Shown here one piece after another: positions 4,732 to 37,031 of a stretch of 37,101 nucleotides of DNA. The stretch is from contig PHCA01000003.1 of the NCBI GenBank assembly GCA_002842085.1, positions 1 through 37,101 of the forward strand, written 5' to 3'. This DNA is from Chloroflexi bacterium HGW-Chloroflexi-1. GTDB lineage: Bacteria > Chloroflexota > Anaerolineae > CG2-30-64-16. A program made the translations under genes and the position numbers. Within the stretch, counting starts at the first letter, position 1; the number at the start of each line of letters is the position of its first letter. The notes beneath the pieces are model-generated. The model searched no databases, was not told the DNA's origin, and saw nothing but the letters and a program-made list of their open reading frames with translations.

Positions 4732-4881
4732 CGTTGCCGCCTCCAGCTTCCCCAGGCGCTCGCCCAGCCGGGCTTTGGCGACCGCGCGCACCTGGCGCGT
4801 CAGAACCACTGCATCCACCCGCAGTCCGCCTTCAGGCGCGGGCGCCGGCACATCGCTGGGATAGAGGTGGGTGACGTTTAC
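4732..4881 (-). pseudogene. C-terminal fragment of a MazF/PemK-family toxin
   Basis: In the frame shifted by one from the upstream antitoxin, 50 codons read VNVTHLYPSDVPAPAPEGGL, RVDAVVLTRQVRAVAKARLG and ERLGKLEAAT. The GGL..D.V.L..QVRA..K.RLG..LG.L pattern is the conserved second half of MazF/PemK endoribonucleases. The N-terminal half with the GDI(V)...G.E...RP catalytic region is absent, and the fragment joins directly onto the antitoxin at about 4880. An internal deletion that removed the antitoxin end and the toxin start explains this. Confidence 0.65.
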
Positions 4882-5220: not shown

Positions 5221-5331
5221 GTATCTTCTCAATTTTTCGGGGAATCGCTCGCTGTGGCCGGTCTCCTGACCGAGCCACCGTGGCTCGGTCAGGAGACCGG
5301 CCACAGTCACCCCGGATTACTGAGAAGATAC
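5221..5331. mobile_element. MITE-like palindromic element, family 1, copy A
   Basis: A 111-bp element with exact 11-bp terminal inverted repeats GTATCTTCTCA (5221-5231) and TGAGAAGATAC (5321-5331). The core is a perfect 27-bp palindrome (5252-5278 with 5280-5306) around one unpaired base, built on GTGGCCGGTCTCCTGACC. It has no coding capacity. It lies between the RHH antitoxin and the GH3 gene. Copies B, C and D are at 9772, 15900 and 25281. Confidence 0.8.
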
Positions 5332-5494: not shown

Positions 5495-8400
5495 ATGAAA
5501 CAACTGCGCATCTTCCTGTGGCTGCTCACCAGCCTGTTGCTCGCCTGGCTACCGCTGATCGCGCCGGCCGCGGCGGCTCCCGCGCGCCAGCAAGCCACCA
5601 CCCCGACCCCCACGGCCACGACAGCGCCCGTGGCGCCTGATGTCCAGGCCATTCTGGACGAAATGACAGTAACCGAGAAGGTCGGCCAACTGTTCCTGGT
5701 CACCTTCGTGGGCGATGACGTGTCAGAGGAATCGGACATCGCGACCCTGGTGCGGGACTATCGCGTCGGCGGTGTCGTGCTACTGCCCGCCAACGCGAAT
5801 TTTCGCAACGTCCCGGCTCCGCCCTCCGGAGCCGGCCCCGGCCAACCCGACACGTCAGTAGAACACAACCTGCTGGACACACCGCAACAGATCGTCCGGC
5901 TGACCGATGCGCTCCAGGCGCTGGCGATGAGCCCGGCGAGACCGATCACCGTCGCAGCCGAAGCGCCAGCCGCCATCACCACGACCGTCGCGCTGACGAC
6001 CACTCTCGAAGTAACCACCACCGCGCCGATCACGGAGGGCACATCCATCCCCTTCCTGCCCAGAACGCCGGAACCGGAGACGGTTCCGGTCACCGAGACG
6101 GCGCCGGTGGAGAGCGCCGTGGGCATTCCGCTGCTGATCGGCCTGGATTGGGTCGGCGACGACAGCTCCTTTTTCTCGGGTAACGGCGGCTTCACGCCGC
6201 TGCCCAGCGCGATGGCCATCGGCGCGACCTGGTCGCCGGACCTGGCCGAAGCGGTCGGCCAGGTGGTGGGCCAGGAACTGCAAACGGTCGGGGTCAACCT
6301 GCTGTTGGGACCCACTCTGGACGTGCTCGATGTGCCGCGGCCGGGGAGCAAAGGGGATCTGGACACCCGCACCTTTGGCGGCGACCCGTACTGGGTCGGC
6401 CAGATGGGCCAGGCGTTCATCCGCGGCGTGCAAACCGGCAGCGAGGGAGGGGTGTTCACCGCGGCCAAACACTTCCCGGGCCAGGGCGGCAGCGATCGCC
6501 GGCCGGATGACGAAGTCGCGACCGTGCAGAAGTCGGTCCAGCAGTTGCGGCAGATCGAGCTGGCGCCGTTCACCGCGGTGACCTCGGGGGGCAACCTGAA
6601 CGGCCGGGGCGCCACCGCCGCGTTGATGACCTCGCACATCCGCTATCGCGGCTTCCAGGGCAACATCCGCCAGCTCACGCCCCCCATCAGCCTGGCTCCC
6701 GAGCTCCAAGCCCTGATGGAGCTGAAGGAATTCGCCGACTGGCGGGCAGCGGGCGGCGTATTGATCAGCGACGCGCTCGGCGTGCCGGCCGTGCGGCGCT
6801 ACTACGACCCCCAGTTGCAGAAGTTCCCGCATCGCCAGGTGGCGCAGGACGCCTTCCTGGCCGGCAACGACATCCTCTATCTCTCACGCTTCGCGCTGAC
6901 CGACGATTGGGATGCCCAGTTCACCGCCATCAAAGAAACGATCCTGTTCTTCCAGAACAAGTACCAGACCGACGCCGATTTCCGCGCGCGCGTGGATGCC
7001 GCGGTCAGGCGCATCATCGGGCTAAAGCTGCGCGCCTACGGAGAAAACTGGCAGGCCGGCACGCTGTATCACGCTCCGGACGAGATCGGTCAAAATGTGG
7101 GCCAGAGCGCGTCGATCACCGGCGCGGTCGCCCGCGCCGGGCTGACCCTGATCTACCCCGGCCGAGAGGAATTGGCCGATCGCATGCCCTCTGCGCCCCT
7201 GGCCGACGAAAACATCGTGATCTTCACCGACGCCCGACCCATCCAGGAGTGCGCCACCTGCGACCCGGCTCCCGCCATCTCCCCCACCGCGCTGGAAGAG
7301 ATCATGCTCCGGCTCTACGGCCCCGACGGCTCCGGCCAGATCGCGCCCAAAAACCTCCGGAGCCTGACGTTTCGCGATCTCCACCGGCTGCTGAGCGTTC
7401 AACCCGGTCAATATCCGGGCATCGAAGCCGCCATCGCCAATGCCCAATGGATCATCTTCGCGCAGTTGGACTACAACCCGGACGAGTATCCCGAATCGGC
7501 CGCACTGCGCACGTTTCTGGCCAAGCGTTCGGACAGCCTGCGCGATAAACGGCTGGTGGTCATGTCGTTCAACGCGCCCTACTACCTGGATACCACCGAG
7601 ATCAGCAAGCTAACCGCGGATTTTGGTATCTACAGCAAGACCGCGCCCTTCCTGGAGACCGCGGTGCGGGCGCTGTTCCGGGAGTTCAGCCCGGTCGGCT
7701 CACCACCCGTCACGATCACCGGCATCAACTACGAGCTGATCAAGCGCCTGGAACCCGCGGCGGGCCAGATCATCTCGCTGGGGCCGGTGGGACCGGCTGA
7801 AGATCAAAGCGGCAACAAGACGAGCATCCAGGTGGGCCGCCTCCTGCTGCTGGAGACGGGCGTCATCCTCGACGGAAACGGGCGCCCCGTCCCCGACGGC
7901 ACCCCGGTGGAGTTCCACCTGCGGTATCCCACGGAGGCGTTGGAACTGGCGCCGAAGGTCGAAACCACTGCAAGCGGCAAAGCACGCACGACGGTGACGC
8001 TGGATCGCCCGGGCGAGCTGTGGATCACCGTACGAGCCGGCGAAGCGAAGAACTCCACCCGTATCGAGCTGAAAGTGGGCGGCGACACCCCGGGCAGCAT
8101 CGCTGCGGTCGTACCATCACCGACGCCGCAACCCACGGCGACCCCGACCCCGGAACCGACCAGCACGCCCACCCCCACGACGGAGCCCAGCCCTACGCCA
8201 ACCGCCACGCCGCAGCCGCCGGTTCCGACGTCGCGGCCGCGGGTGACGTGGCCGGCTTTTCTATATGGCGTGGCCGGCATGGTGGTGTCCGGGGGCACGG
8301 CATTCGCCGCGGGCAAACGCCGCGGCCGCGGCCAGAGTCATCCACGCTCCCACGCGGTCGGAAGCGCTTTGCGAGCCGGGACAACCGCCTGGATCGGCTA

Positions 8401-10710: not shown

Positions 10711-10846
10711 CGGATTGGTAGATTGGTAGATTGGTAGATTGGTAGGTTGGGACGGTCACTCGTCGTCCCGTCACCCTGTCACCCCGTCACCAATTTACCA
10801 ATTTACCCCGTTACCAATTTACCAATTTACCCCGTCACCGTGTCCA
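10711..10846. repeat. Octamer-phased repeat array with inverted arms
   Basis: Four GATTGGTA units (10713-10744) are followed by a spacer and then units of CCCGTCAC, CAATTTAC and CCCGTTAC, all kept in strict 8-nt phase. The left arm (GATTGGTA) is nearly the reverse complement of the right arm (TACCAATT). The array fills the gap between the FHA gene and hemW. A TATAGC at the extreme right (about 10848) might serve as a -10 for hemW, but this is weak. Confidence 0.75.
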
Positions 10847-10855
10847 GTATAGCTC

Positions 10856-17791: not shown

Positions 17792-19260
<1,469 letters not shown>

Positions 19261-19279
19261 TCTGCCGGAATTGGCACCA

Positions 19280-19420
19280 TGGATTGGTGGATTGGTGGAT
19301 TGGTGGATTGGTGGATTGGTAGGTTGGTAGATTGGTGGCAAGTCGCTGCCCATCGAGCAGACCACCAATTTACCAATTTACCAGTTTACCAGTTTACCAG
19401 TTTACCAGTTTACCAACACC
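19280..19420. repeat. Octamer-phased repeat array with inverted arms
   Basis: Left arm of GATTGGTG/GATTGGTA units (about 19281-19338); right arm of ACCAATTT and ACCAGTTT units (19364-19411). The arms are near reverse complements and can fold into a long hairpin. It lies between copA and the metY leader. From 19421 to 19597 there is only non-coding sequence, with no recognised signal. Confidence 0.75.
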
Positions 19421-19597
19421 TGGTTGCCGAGGCTTCACAGGGCCGGTCCCTCTGCCTCTCTGGATAAGAGTTTTTGATGCTATGCGATTGTTGCCGGGGA
19501 CTATACCAGCCTGGCGGGGATTTGTCAAATCGCTCGGGTACGTTTTATTTCACTTTGTGCCCTTCGTGTCTAAAAATTTCCTTATCCACTTAAATGT

Positions 19598-33223: not shown

Positions 33224-33967
33224 TTACTCCCAACGGAATGTCTTGATCGAGACCAGTACTCCCACTACCAGCAGCGCCAGCAGGACGATCACCTCAGTGG
33301 TGTGCTGGCTCCAGGCCTCGCCGATCCACAGGCCGCGCAGCAGGGTGACCACGTGCGTCAGCGGCAGGAAGCGGGCAAATGAGCGTACCCCCTCGGGCAT
33401 GACTTCGAGCGGGATGGCGGACCCGGAGAGGAAGATCATCGGGTAGAAGATGACCATGCCTACCACCTGGGCGGTGCGGGCGGTCGGCATCAGGCCGGCC
33501 AGCACGAATCCGAGGGCGAAGAAGGACAGGCTGCCGAGCACGAAGGCGGCCGCCACGCTGAGCGGGTTCCCGTCAAAGCGCAGGTGATAGACCAGTTTCC
33601 CGGCCAGGACCAGCAGGGCCATGCCGAGGAGCGTCATCAGGAAGATGACCACCACCTGGGCCGACAGGATGGTCTGCGGCCGCAGGGGGGTGGCGCGCAG
33701 GCGGCGCAGGATGCCGAACTCGCGGTAGACCGCCATGGTGATTGTCAGGGTCAGGAGGCCGCTGGTGCCGATGATCATGGCGGTATAGGCTGGCACCGAG
33801 ACGTCCACCGTGCCGTAGCCGCCGAAGTAGGGCGAGGGCTCGTTACCGTAGATGGCCCCGAACAGGAAGAGCAGCATCAGCGGGAAGGCCAGGGTGAAGA
33901 AGGCCCCATACGGCTCGCGGAAGAAGAGCTTGATCTCGACCCGGGTCAGTTTCAAGAAAGCACGCAT
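33224..33967 (-). CDS. ABC-2 type exporter permease
   Basis: The protein (about 247 residues from the second ATG at 33967, which has AGGAG 8 nt upstream) has six hydrophobic segments and the ABC-2 layout: FFREPYGAFFTLAFPLMLLF, REFGILRRLRATPL after helix 2, and the late PMIFLSGSAIPLEVMPEGVR...LPLTHVV loop. It forms the membrane channel for the ATPase encoded 98 bp upstream. The substrate is unknown; drug or lipid export is common for the type. The gene end faces ATPase 3 across a MITE. Confidence 0.9.
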   Translation of the reverse strand: MRAFLKLTRVEIKLFFREPYGAFFTLAFPLMLLFLFGAIYGNEPSPYFGGYGTVDVSVPAYTAMIIGTSGLLTLTITMAVYREFGILRRLRATPLRPQTILSAQVVVIFLMTLLGMALLVLAGKLVYHLRFDGNPLSVAAAFVLGSLSFFALGFVLAGLMPTARTAQVVGMVIFYPMIFLSGSAIPLEVMPEGVRSFARFLPLTHVVTLLRGLWIGEAWSQHTTEVIVLLALLVVGVLVSIKTFRWE

Positions 33968-33982
33968 ATTCATTTCTCCTTG

Positions 33983-34064: not shown

Positions 34065-34997
34065 CTAGTCTCGCATGGCCTGCCCGGTCAGGGTCAGGAA
34101 GACGTCTTCCAGGCTGGGCTGTTCGGTGCGCAGGTCATCGAAGCGCACCCCCCGGCTGGTGAGGGCGTTGACGACCTCGGCCACCAGCGGGGCATGACCG
34201 TTCTGGCCGTTGGTCCGCCCGTAGACGACGATCCGGTCGCCGAGGTTTTCCACGCGCGTGACCGACGGCAGGTCCGCCAGCCCCTCGGGCGTGCGGCCGC
34301 CCTCCACGCTGAAGACAATCCGGCTCTCGATCCCCAGGCCCTGGATCAGGTTGGCGGGCGTATCGAGGGCCACGATGCGGCCGTGATCCAGGATGGCCAC
34401 CCGGTCGCACAGGCGCTCGGCCTCTTCCATGAAATGGGTGGTCAGGACGATGGTCTTGCCGCGCTGGCGGACGTCGCGCATCAGGTCCCAGATGGCGTGA
34501 CGCGCCTGGGGGTCCAGGCCGGTGGTCAATTCGTCGAGGAAGACCAGTTGCGGGTCGTTGACCAGGGCCAGGGCGATGAACAGGCGCTGTTTCTGTCCGC
34601 CGGAGAGTTTGTGGAAGGCGGCATCCCGCTTCTCGGCCAGGCCGAGCTGCTCGATCAAACCCTTCCAGTCCACCGGGTGCGGGTAGAACGAGGCGTACAG
34701 GTCGAGCGCCTCCCAGACCTTGAGATGCTCAGGCAGGTTGGCCTGCTGGAGTTGGACGCCGAGCAGCGGGCGCAGGGCCCGTTCCTGGCGGGTGGGGTCC
34801 AGCCCCAGAACGCGCACCGTCCCCCGCTCCGGCCGGCGCAGACCCTCGACGCACTCGATGGTGGTGGTCTTGCCGGCCCCGTTCGGGCCGACCATCCCGA
34901 AGATTTCCCCTTCCCGCACCTCGAAGGAGACCTCGTCCACGGCGACGGTGGCGCCGTAGGTCTTGCGTAATTTTTCGACTTGCACGACCTGGTTCAT
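34065..34997 (-). CDS. ABC transporter ATP-binding protein
   Basis: The start at 34997 (MNQVVQVEKLRKTYGATVAV) has GAGG 6 nt upstream. The 310-residue protein has Walker A GPNGAGKTT, the Q-loop, signature LSGGQKQR, Walker B LVFLDELTTGLD (the usual Glu-Pro is Glu-Leu) and the switch His in TTHFMEEA. The C-terminal 90 residues are the DUF4162-like extension common in ABC-2 drug exporters. It drives the permease encoded downstream. The gap to the regulator gene upstream holds a hairpin repeat. Confidence 0.93.
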   Translation of the reverse strand: MNQVVQVEKLRKTYGATVAVDEVSFEVREGEIFGMVGPNGAGKTTTIECVEGLRRPERGTVRVLGLDPTRQERALRPLLGVQLQQANLPEHLKVWEALDLYASFYPHPVDWKGLIEQLGLAEKRDAAFHKLSGGQKQRLFIALALVNDPQLVFLDELTTGLDPQARHAIWDLMRDVRQRGKTIVLTTHFMEEAERLCDRVAILDHGRIVALDTPANLIQGLGIESRIVFSVEGGRTPEGLADLPSVTRVENLGDRIVVYGRTNGQNGHAPLVAEVVNALTSRGVRFDDLRTEQPSLEDVFLTLTGQAMRD

Positions 34998-35022: not shown

Positions 35023-35114
35023 CCCTGCGAAGGTTTGACCGGTTCATGAATATGCTTGCAGATCGAACTCTTGCTCGCGGGCAAGGTTTTGCCGATCAGG
35101 AAACCTTCGCAGGG
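35023..35114. repeat. Inverted repeat CCCTGCGAAGGTTT
   Basis: CCCTGCGAAGGTTT (35023-35036) and AAACCTTCGCAGGG (35101-35114) are exact reverse complements 64 bp apart. The same motif, with one change, forms the nested repeat at 13338-13403. The right arm provides the final codons of the regulator gene (about NPAKV). Confidence 0.7.
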
Positions 35115-35404
35115 TTGTTCTTCAAAATCGATTCCAGCGCCGCCACGTGCTCGCTGAAGACCTTGCGGCCTTCAACGGTGGCAGAGACGTAGGTGCGCGG
35201 CTTGCGCTCGACGAAGGTCTTGTTGACGGCGATGTAACCGGCCTCTTCCAGTTTGCGCAGGTGGGCGCCCAGGTTGCCGTCGGTGACCTCGAGCAGGCCG
35301 CGCAGATAGGTGAAATCTACTTCCTCGTCCGGCTTGAGGGTCACCAGGGCGGCCATGACGCGCAGGCGCACCGGCTGGTGGATGGTTTCGTTTAGCTCGG
35401 CCAT
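35096..35404 (-). CDS. Winged-helix transcriptional regulator (HTH_27-like)
   Basis: The 102-residue protein is a single winged helix: HQPVRLRVMAALVTLKPDEEVDFTYLRGLL, recognition helix DGNLGAHLRKLEEAGYIAV and the wing FVERKPRTYVSATVEGRKVF. This matches the PF13601/ArsR-like small regulators that often sit with ABC-2 exporters. It starts 4 nt after the preceding gene stops, with AGGTGG upstream. The C-terminal residues come from a hairpin repeat. It may bind the 15-bp palindrome at 36987-37001 (inference). Confidence 0.9.
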   Translation of the reverse strand: MAELNETIHQPVRLRVMAALVTLKPDEEVDFTYLRGLLEVTDGNLGAHLRKLEEAGYIAVNKTFVERKPRTYVSATVEGRKVFSEHVAALESILKNNPAKVS

Positions 35405-35408
35405 GGGT

Positions 35409-35978
35409 CTACCACCTGTAGCGGATGTAGATGCCCATGGCGATCATCCCGCCGCCGCCCAGGATGGCCATCCAGAGATAGAAGATATCCAGCAGCAGGA
35501 AGTAGCCGATCAGCGCCAGGGCGGCAATGACCAGCCCGGGCAAGATGGAGTCGAAGGAGAGCAGCAGGTCCATGGCCAGCCAGCCGACCATGACGAACAG
35601 GATGATAAACATGGCAACCTGCTTGCCGTCTACCGGCCAGGCGACTCCGATAGCGGCCGCGCTGTAGATGATCAGCAGCAGCCAGAACCAGCCGATCCGT
35701 TTTCCGGAGGCGGCTGCCAATGGACTGCGCACCTGCCTGCCCATGCGGATGCCGATGATGGCAGAAAGGACGCCGCCGAGAATGTCCAGTCCCATCCAGA
35801 TGTAGCCGGCGATTTCATCGGGCAGGAAATGGGAACACAGGAAACCAAGCAGCCAGACGACACCCCAGACGATAAGGAATCCGTAGGCGCCGCTGGCGGA
35901 AATTGCCCGGCGGGTTTTCTTCATCGTGGCCTGGATGGCGGCCAGGGCTTCTTCGGCTTCGGTAGGGGAGATGTTCAT
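35409..35978 (-). CDS. Multi-pass membrane protein of the regulator/ABC operon
   Basis: The start at 35978 (MNISPTEAEEALAAIQATMK) has AGGAG 7 nt upstream. The 189-residue protein has a cytosolic amphipathic start (1-26) and about five membrane segments. I do not recognise a named family; such proteins commonly lie beside small winged-helix regulators and may sense membrane state. Its first 45 codons are duplicated at 36832-36967. It overlaps the AT-rich gene by 4 nt (ATGA) and is followed by the regulator. Confidence 0.75.
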   Translation of the reverse strand: MNISPTEAEEALAAIQATMKKTRRAISASGAYGFLIVWGVVWLLGFLCSHFLPDEIAGYIWMGLDILGGVLSAIIGIRMGRQVRSPLAAASGKRIGWFWLLLIIYSAAAIGVAWPVDGKQVAMFIILFVMVGWLAMDLLLSFDSILPGLVIAALALIGYFLLLDIFYLWMAILGGGGMIAMGIYIRYRW

Positions 35979-35992
35979 GCGGATGCTCCTTT
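35857..35992. repeat. 136-bp direct repeat, left copy (start of the membrane-protein gene)
   Basis: This covers the first 40 or so codons of the gene at 35978, its ribosome binding site and a few upstream bases. It matches 36832-36967 with 4 mismatches (about 97%). Together the copies bracket the AT-rich gene. Confidence 0.9.
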
Positions 35993-36814
35993 TTCTACTT
36001 TCGCCTTCTTTTCTTTCAACGGTCTCTTTTTGAAAGAAAGAATTAAGCCATATATGGAAATGATTACCAATGGAAAATGTAACACGCCATTCCACCATAA
36101 ATTTGGAGTAGTGAAATTAACCACCATATTCCAAAAACCGATAATTATTCCGGCAAGAGAAGTAACCCGCAGCGTTGCGATATTTACTTTTGGATAATAG
36201 AGGATAAGCATTGTTAGATACACGGGCGTCATCATACAAAAGGCTAAACCAACAGGGTTTGTGAATAGATAAAGTGGATTGAAATCTGGATGCACGGTTT
36301 CAAGATTGGTTGGATACCAAAAAGCTAAAAATGCCAATGGCAAAACCCAGTAATTCCAGATTGAAAACTTCCTTGGTGTAAAGTCGTTCTTCCTCATCTT
36401 TGCTTCCCAGAGCCAAAAACCCGCAACTACGAGCAGCATAATAACATTTCCAGTAACAATACCAATACCATACCTTTCAGTAATAGCGACACCTTGAAGG
36501 ATTGCAAAAAGAATATAGGTTATGCCAGCATAGACGCTAAAAAGCCTTGTAATTCGATTCCCCAAAAGAATTATGAAAACAATCAAAAGGATGGGGATGA
36601 CTTTGAAAATTGGGTAAAGTAACGGATCGACATGATCGATCAAAGCCTTACCTAATATATAGCCACTCACTTCCCCTATTTTCGAATATTCATATCCTTT
36701 TGAAGCATACGGTGGCAGTACGGTTCCCATCAAAATAAAAATGAGAATAAACCACCACCTTCCGGTCAGCCATTCAAGTTTTCCCTGAATTTTGTCAAGA
36801 TTTTCTTTATTCAT
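35975..36814 (-). CDS. AT-rich multi-pass membrane protein, unrecognised family
   Basis: The start at 36814 (MNKENLDKIQGKLEWLTGRW) has GGAGG 6 nt upstream. The 279-residue protein has about eight hydrophobic segments and a basic C-terminus. The DNA is far more AT-rich than any neighbour, with Asn, Ile, Lys, Phe and Tyr in place of the Ala, Arg and Gly typical here, so recent transfer is likely. It lies exactly between the two 136-bp repeats. Its last four codons (GASA) come from the left repeat and its TGA overlaps the next ATG, so it is cleanly fitted into the operon. I know no function for it. Confidence 0.8.
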   Translation of the reverse strand: MNKENLDKIQGKLEWLTGRWWFILIFILMGTVLPPYASKGYEYSKIGEVSGYILGKALIDHVDPLLYPIFKVIPILLIVFIILLGNRITRLFSVYAGITYILFAILQGVAITERYGIGIVTGNVIMLLVVAGFWLWEAKMRKNDFTPRKFSIWNYWVLPLAFLAFWYPTNLETVHPDFNPLYLFTNPVGLAFCMMTPVYLTMLILYYPKVNIATLRVTSLAGIIIGFWNMVVNFTTPNLWWNGVLHFPLVIISIYGLILSFKKRPLKEKKAKVEKGASA

Positions 36815-36953
36815 TTTTTGCCTCCATCTTAACGACACCCCAGACGATGAGGAATCCGTAGGCGCCGCTGGCGGAAATAGCCCGGCGGGCCTTCTTCATC
36901 GTGGCCTGGATGGCGGCCAGGGCTTCTTCGGCTTCGGTAGGGGAGATGTTCAT
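36807..36953 (-). pseudogene. Truncated duplicate of the membrane-protein gene 5' end
   Basis: From ATG 36953 the frame repeats the first 41 residues of the protein at 35978 with one change (MKKARRAI for MKKTRRAI), then runs into a short foreign end KMEAKNE and stops at 36807-36809, inside the start of the AT-rich gene. It keeps the promoter and ribosome binding site, so it probably acts as a leader peptide gene coupled to the AT-rich gene. Confidence 0.8.
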
Positions 36954-36967
36954 GCGGATGCTCCTTT
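36832..36967. repeat. 136-bp direct repeat, right copy
   Basis: Second copy of 35857-35992, 4 mismatches, same orientation. It lies next to the operon promoter, so it is probably the original 5' end of the gene, with the left copy recreated or acquired together with the AT-rich insert. Confidence 0.9.
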
Positions 36968-36986
36968 GGTCTTGTGATTTAGAGGA

Positions 36987-37001
36987 CTCTGTAATACAGA
37001 G
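36987..37001 (-). promoter_or_regulatory. 15-bp palindromic operator at the operon start
   Basis: CTCTGTA-A-TACAGAG is a perfect palindrome lying just downstream of the -10 box, over the expected transcription start. It suits a dimeric winged-helix repressor; the operon encodes one (35096-35404). Confidence 0.65.
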
Positions 37002-37002
37002 C

Positions 37003-37031
37003 ATTCTATAACGAATAGGGGAAAATGTCAA
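37003..37031 (-). promoter_or_regulatory. Promoter of the membrane protein/regulator/ABC operon
   Basis: On the minus strand TTGACA (37031-37026), 17-bp spacer, TAGAAT (37008-37003). It is the only clear promoter for the run of genes down to 33224. Nothing further is seen from 37032 to the window end. Confidence 0.75.

Follow-up and report, generated by a model that had tools for sequence, protein, structure and literature searches.

In Helicobacter pylori, restriction-modification genes are described in PMC1643837 and PMC3031569 as inserting with long target duplications, both papers citing the original report (Nobusato et al. 2000), and in Escherichia coli conjugation single crossovers with circles left duplications of 109-950 bp (PMC3240628). 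The locus described here lies within a 37,101-nucleotide stretch of DNA from Chloroflexi bacterium HGW-Chloroflexi-1 (contig PHCA01000003.1, positions 1 to 37,101, hereafter the window), where one AT-rich gene stands between two long direct repeats at the front of an exporter operon. The event is of a known kind, an insertion with long target duplication; what is unusual is its cargo and the operon-preserving outcome. As in H. pylori, the insert lies between long direct repeats, relatives have the repeated sequence only once and a transposase is absent, whereas the cargo here is one membrane-protein gene and not a restriction-modification pair, the operon is kept with both junctions coupled, and the relatives compared are other species. 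The partial target duplication beside the insert is shared with the E. coli case, but the circle used there carried engineered homology, whereas we infer the joining of the foreign gene to host sequence in the window.

Two further described systems bear on the locus. Integron gene cassettes occur in archaeal MAGs as well (PMC9668308), and the closest homologues of the AT-rich gene adjoin attC-like sites, whereas the copy in the window has no attC and lies in no array. The operon itself resembles DrrAB-type ABC exporter operons with a winged-helix HTH_34 regulator in gene content and regulator family; it differs in having extra membrane-protein genes in front, and its DrrA match falls under the curated cut-off. 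With moderate confidence we read the locus as the insertion of one foreign gene, which probably came from the integron-cassette pool, at the front of a self-regulated operon of the drug-exporter type, with duplication of 136 bp of the recipient; the gene would have been joined by a single crossover or a template switch and would serve an accessory function for the exporter.

The direct repeats occupy positions 35857-35992 and 36832-36967, all features of the locus being on the minus strand. Each is 136 bp long, they are spaced by 975 bp, and 132 of the 136 positions are identical, a pair far beyond chance. The initial annotation had described two such repeats, with four mismatches, around one AT-rich gene, and both coordinates and identity were recovered. 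The right repeat is a truncated copy of the operon's first gene, made up of leader, ribosome binding site and 42 initial codons, and the left one holds the ribosome binding site and the beginning of the intact first gene. As had been proposed, the promoter lies 5' of the truncated copy only. The order of transcription is promoter, truncated first gene, AT-rich gene, intact first gene, HTH_34 regulator, ATPase and ABC-2 permease. The segment between the repeats (35993-36831, 839 bp) has a GC content of 37.7% and holds one intact gene, with neither a transposase nor terminal inverted repeats; the insert is a single ORF. The AT-rich gene (35975-36814, 279 codons) has 38.0% GC and a GC3 of 37.5%, compared with 61.5% GC for the whole window and with 61-68% GC and a GC3 of 83-90% for the four operon genes, which bears out the expected difference from the flanks.

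Both new junctions join reading frames. The truncated frame (36807-36953, 48 codons) starts at 36953, has 42 codons in common with the first gene and terminates at 36807, just inside the AT-rich gene, which begins with an ATG at 36814. At the other end, the AT-rich gene terminates with a TGA (35975-35977) that forms an ATGA overlap with the start codon of the intact first gene (ATG, 35978-35976), so that the tight coupling first suspected at the two junctions is present at both. The duplicated host 5' leader supplies the final codons of the AT-rich gene (..GASA*), implying that the gene's own stop codon was lost; comparison with relatives indicates that the incoming gene lost a few codons at most from its own end. 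The gene still has its own ribosome binding site, GGAGG. The insertion broke no gene and gave the AT-rich gene the operon promoter.

That promoter, TTGACA-17-TAGAAT, matches 11 of 12 positions and extends from the -35 box at 37031 to the end of the -10 box at 37003, with a palindrome, GCTCTGTATTACAGAGT, at 37002-36986 (promoter and operator together, 36986-37031). Given its position directly behind the -10 box, the palindrome is very probably the site of the HTH_34 regulator itself. Behind the intact first gene, which encodes a 189-aa membrane protein of an unnamed family (35409-35978), lie the winged-helix regulator (35096-35404; PF13601, E 7e-27), a DrrA-like ABC transporter ATPase (34065-34994; PF00005, 1.5e-27; TIGR01188, 265 bits, under the cut-off of 312) and an ABC-2 type permease (33224-33973; PF01061, 1.6e-26). 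The locus thus has an HTH_34 gene beside those of an ABC ATPase and permease, together with a conserved operator-like palindrome, as an HTH_34-regulated exporter operon does, and the conservation of the operator suggests that the regulator also controls the AT-rich gene.

Comparison with relatives revealed what the operon looks like without the insert. Homologues of the first gene were found in 32 of 396 genomes of the same class, this one counted, nearly all of them followed by the regulator (about 30 of the 396 genomes) and most then also by the ABC ATPase and permease. Five homologous operons, the nearest of which belong to other genera, contain no insert and start with an intact first gene directly behind the promoter (G005, of the same family, G386 contig 2, G167, G330 and G176), as predicted in the initial annotation. 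Their TTGAC..TAGAAT promoter and a palindrome like ACTCTGTATTACAGAGT are homologous to window positions 36986-37031, and more distant operons have an equal layout with an operator of the version TACTTT..AAAGTA. Two earlier claims are borne out by this comparison: promoter and gene order of the operon were retained, being the same in the relatives, and the insertion proceeded by duplication of the start of the host gene without a transposase, as supported by the repeats and these empty sites. No empty site was found in the same species or genus, in which the only other genome (G001, 75% complete) lacks the operon. In one further genome of the sample (G389; L102 6423-7552) the first gene is present as two diverged tandem copies ahead of the regulator.

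The repeats themselves indicate whose DNA was duplicated. Orthologues of the first gene in other genera reach at most 72% protein identity, whereas the repeats are 97% identical to each other, which argues that both are recipient sequence. Only one of their four differences changes an amino acid (Thr/Ala); the intact copy keeps the Thr found in all six aligned relatives, the Ala of the truncated copy being derived, and the other three differences are silent. The repeats therefore fit a duplication of recipient DNA after which the truncated copy drifted, and a donor-derived start fits less well. The latter would be expected of a homologous transfer from a donor operon in which the AT-rich gene lay directly ahead of the first gene, one repeat then being donor-derived. 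Three silent differences out of four are what diverged functional copies would show, and members of the AT-rich family do occur in the same operon of two other genomes (G302 and G126). However, a genome in which the AT-rich gene precedes the same first gene, which had been anticipated, was not encountered among about 30 operons of the class sample, and this, the high identity of the repeats and the placement of the window gene apart from the operon-borne copies in the tree (see below) make such a transfer quite unlikely.

The assembly is fragmented (419 contigs), and a false join made through the repeat could in principle mimic the arrangement, as the repeats share an identical stretch of 76 bp and a 5-N scaffold gap begins at 37102, immediately beyond the locus. 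We consider such an artefact very improbable: the sequence is continuous across both junctions, four positions distinguish the copies, the reading frames fit together exactly at each end, and 76 bp is less than an ordinary read length.

Elsewhere in the window, other repeated elements were observed. A full match to the SAM riboswitch aptamer model (RF00162, 78.9 bits) at 19241-19470 on the minus strand has one hairpin loop enlarged by about 130 bases, which are largely an 8-base tandem repeat, ACCAGTTT/ACCAATTT, around 19363-19422. A similar 8-base array (ACCAATTT and variants) lies at 10764-10855, distant from the riboswitch, and GCTGTGGCCGGTCTCCTGACCGAGCCAC, a dispersed element that is partly a long palindrome, occurs at 5251, 9796, 9845, 15931 and 25316.

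The product of the AT-rich gene is a membrane protein of an unnamed family, with roughly 7-8 membrane segments in hydropathy analysis. Profile searches of the family against Pfam, NCBIfam, PHROG and PDB gave no usable match, and an AlphaFold2 model built from four sequences had a pLDDT of 51 and a pTM of 0.41. Its closest homologues are encoded in a Methanosarcinales MAG (L002, 72% identity) and a Dehalococcoidia MAG (L003, 63%), by genes of 34-35% GC, and the homologue in G302 is 60% identical. No homologue was found in nine other genomes of the host's family or in the plasmids and viral contigs searched. A foreign origin of the AT-rich gene is supported.

In the Methanosarcinales contig the homologous gene lies within a run of genes on the same strand, between attC-like sites at 4759-4849 and 6147-6230, and in the Dehalococcoidia contig an attC-like site (2256-2337) begins 16 bp beyond the stop of the gene. 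Upstream of the gene both contigs carry GTTATACGCAATC-GCTTAATCAAAA, of which GTTATACGCAATC is the half-site. A covariance model built from five attC-like sites, which match it by construction as the others do not, detected 19 sites in the genome of L002 and 14 in that of L003, and single-strand folding gave a clear hairpin for some of the sites only. Neither of these two genomes contains an integron integrase above the curated cut-off. The closest homologues are nevertheless probably carried on integron-cassette arrays, a well-supported reading that applies to contigs possibly misbinned.

The genome of the window gave no match to the attC-like model, in the window or anywhere else, but it does encode an IntI-type integrase with an intact frame, which scores 490 bits against a cut-off of 265 and lies at the end of a contig. 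At this locus (G000:C220; L063 5144-6109 and 6306-6403) the integrase gene is adjoined by a half-site, GTTAGGC, and by a stretch that may be attC-like, and an array there may be cut off by the assembly. An integron integrase might have placed the cassette at a non-classical, attG-like site, with later rearrangement removing the attC. The intact integrase, the attC-like sites adjoining the closest homologues and the resemblance of the front junction, G/TTAAG, to an integrase crossover speak for this. Yet the G-TT match is short and possibly due to chance, and attG sites follow GWT whereas the target here reads GTC. No attC is present at the 3' junction, and insertion by an integrase explains neither its absence nor the duplication; we know of no integrase insertion that produces a duplication of 136 bp. 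We regard this route as improbable.

The family was also found in the same type of operon outside the window. G302 (L047) has the homologue of the AT-rich gene behind first gene and regulator and ahead of a small membrane protein and the ATPase, with coupling of the ATGA type; G126 has the same order, its homologue (L100 5286-5426) decayed to 50 codons. No flanking repeats surround the homologues in G302 and G126, and none those in L002-L004 apart from the attC-like sites. In phylogenetic trees, where the AT-rich sequences have an odd amino-acid composition that may draw them together, the window gene grouped with that of L002 (support 99/96 in the larger set and 91/94 in the smaller one) and G126 grouped with G302 (95/95). 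A grouping of the window gene with G302 was rejected (AU p = 0.008), implying that the family probably entered this operon type at least twice, at two positions; the tree is indifferent to direction, from cassette to operon or the reverse. The proposal that the gene came from a donor with the same operon is thus upheld in one part, as G302 and G126 do carry the homologue in the operon, at another position, and contradicted in the other, the window gene grouping with copies near attC-like sites. As both repeats also look like recipient sequence, the donor most likely contributed the AT-rich gene only.

For the insertion of the foreign gene with duplication of recipient sequence, we suggest that the incoming DNA would first have been joined to a piece of the start of the first gene, and that the joined circle or fragment would then have integrated by a single crossover, leaving the 136-bp duplication. 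Alternatively, one template switch during replication might have done both the joining and the insertion; we infer the joining step in either form. The AT-rich gene would as a result be transcribed from the promoter and operator of the operon, with the truncated leader frame coupled in front of it and the intact first gene behind. ComEC was found in the genome. End joining of a staggered break is an unlikely route, as it depends on Ku and a Ku gene gave no match in this genome, which is 97.9% complete. Homology-facilitated illegitimate recombination was also considered, but the deletion expected at the illegitimate end is absent and a duplication is found instead.

It is the gene neighbourhood that suggests what the protein does. 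Tentatively, and at somewhat less than an even chance, it would act as an accessory partner, either of the exporter or of the small membrane protein that the first gene of the operon encodes, and would be made upon release of the HTH_34 regulator. The gene could also have been inserted as described but have nothing to do with the exporter, a passenger whose position reflects a chance landing with expression. This we hold to be rather unlikely, although most of the remaining members of the family are in unrelated neighbourhoods: the close subfamily, five members here, is found in three genomes, at two positions, within one rare type of operon, and two probable entries into it favour a functional tie.

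Unknown genes are carried on integron cassettes in huge numbers, and their fixation in ordinary operons is poorly documented. The locus in the window is a likely end point of such a process: the gene is bare of any attC, a native promoter and operator precede it, and both frames are coupled. It is a speculative and, in our view, unlikely extension that a family circulating on integron cassettes among distant groups was recruited at least twice, at different positions, into the same exporter operon as a real functional module, and that operon-preserving target duplication would be a general route from integrons to fixed chromosomal genes. The repeated link with one exporter operon gives this unnamed family of membrane proteins a testable function.
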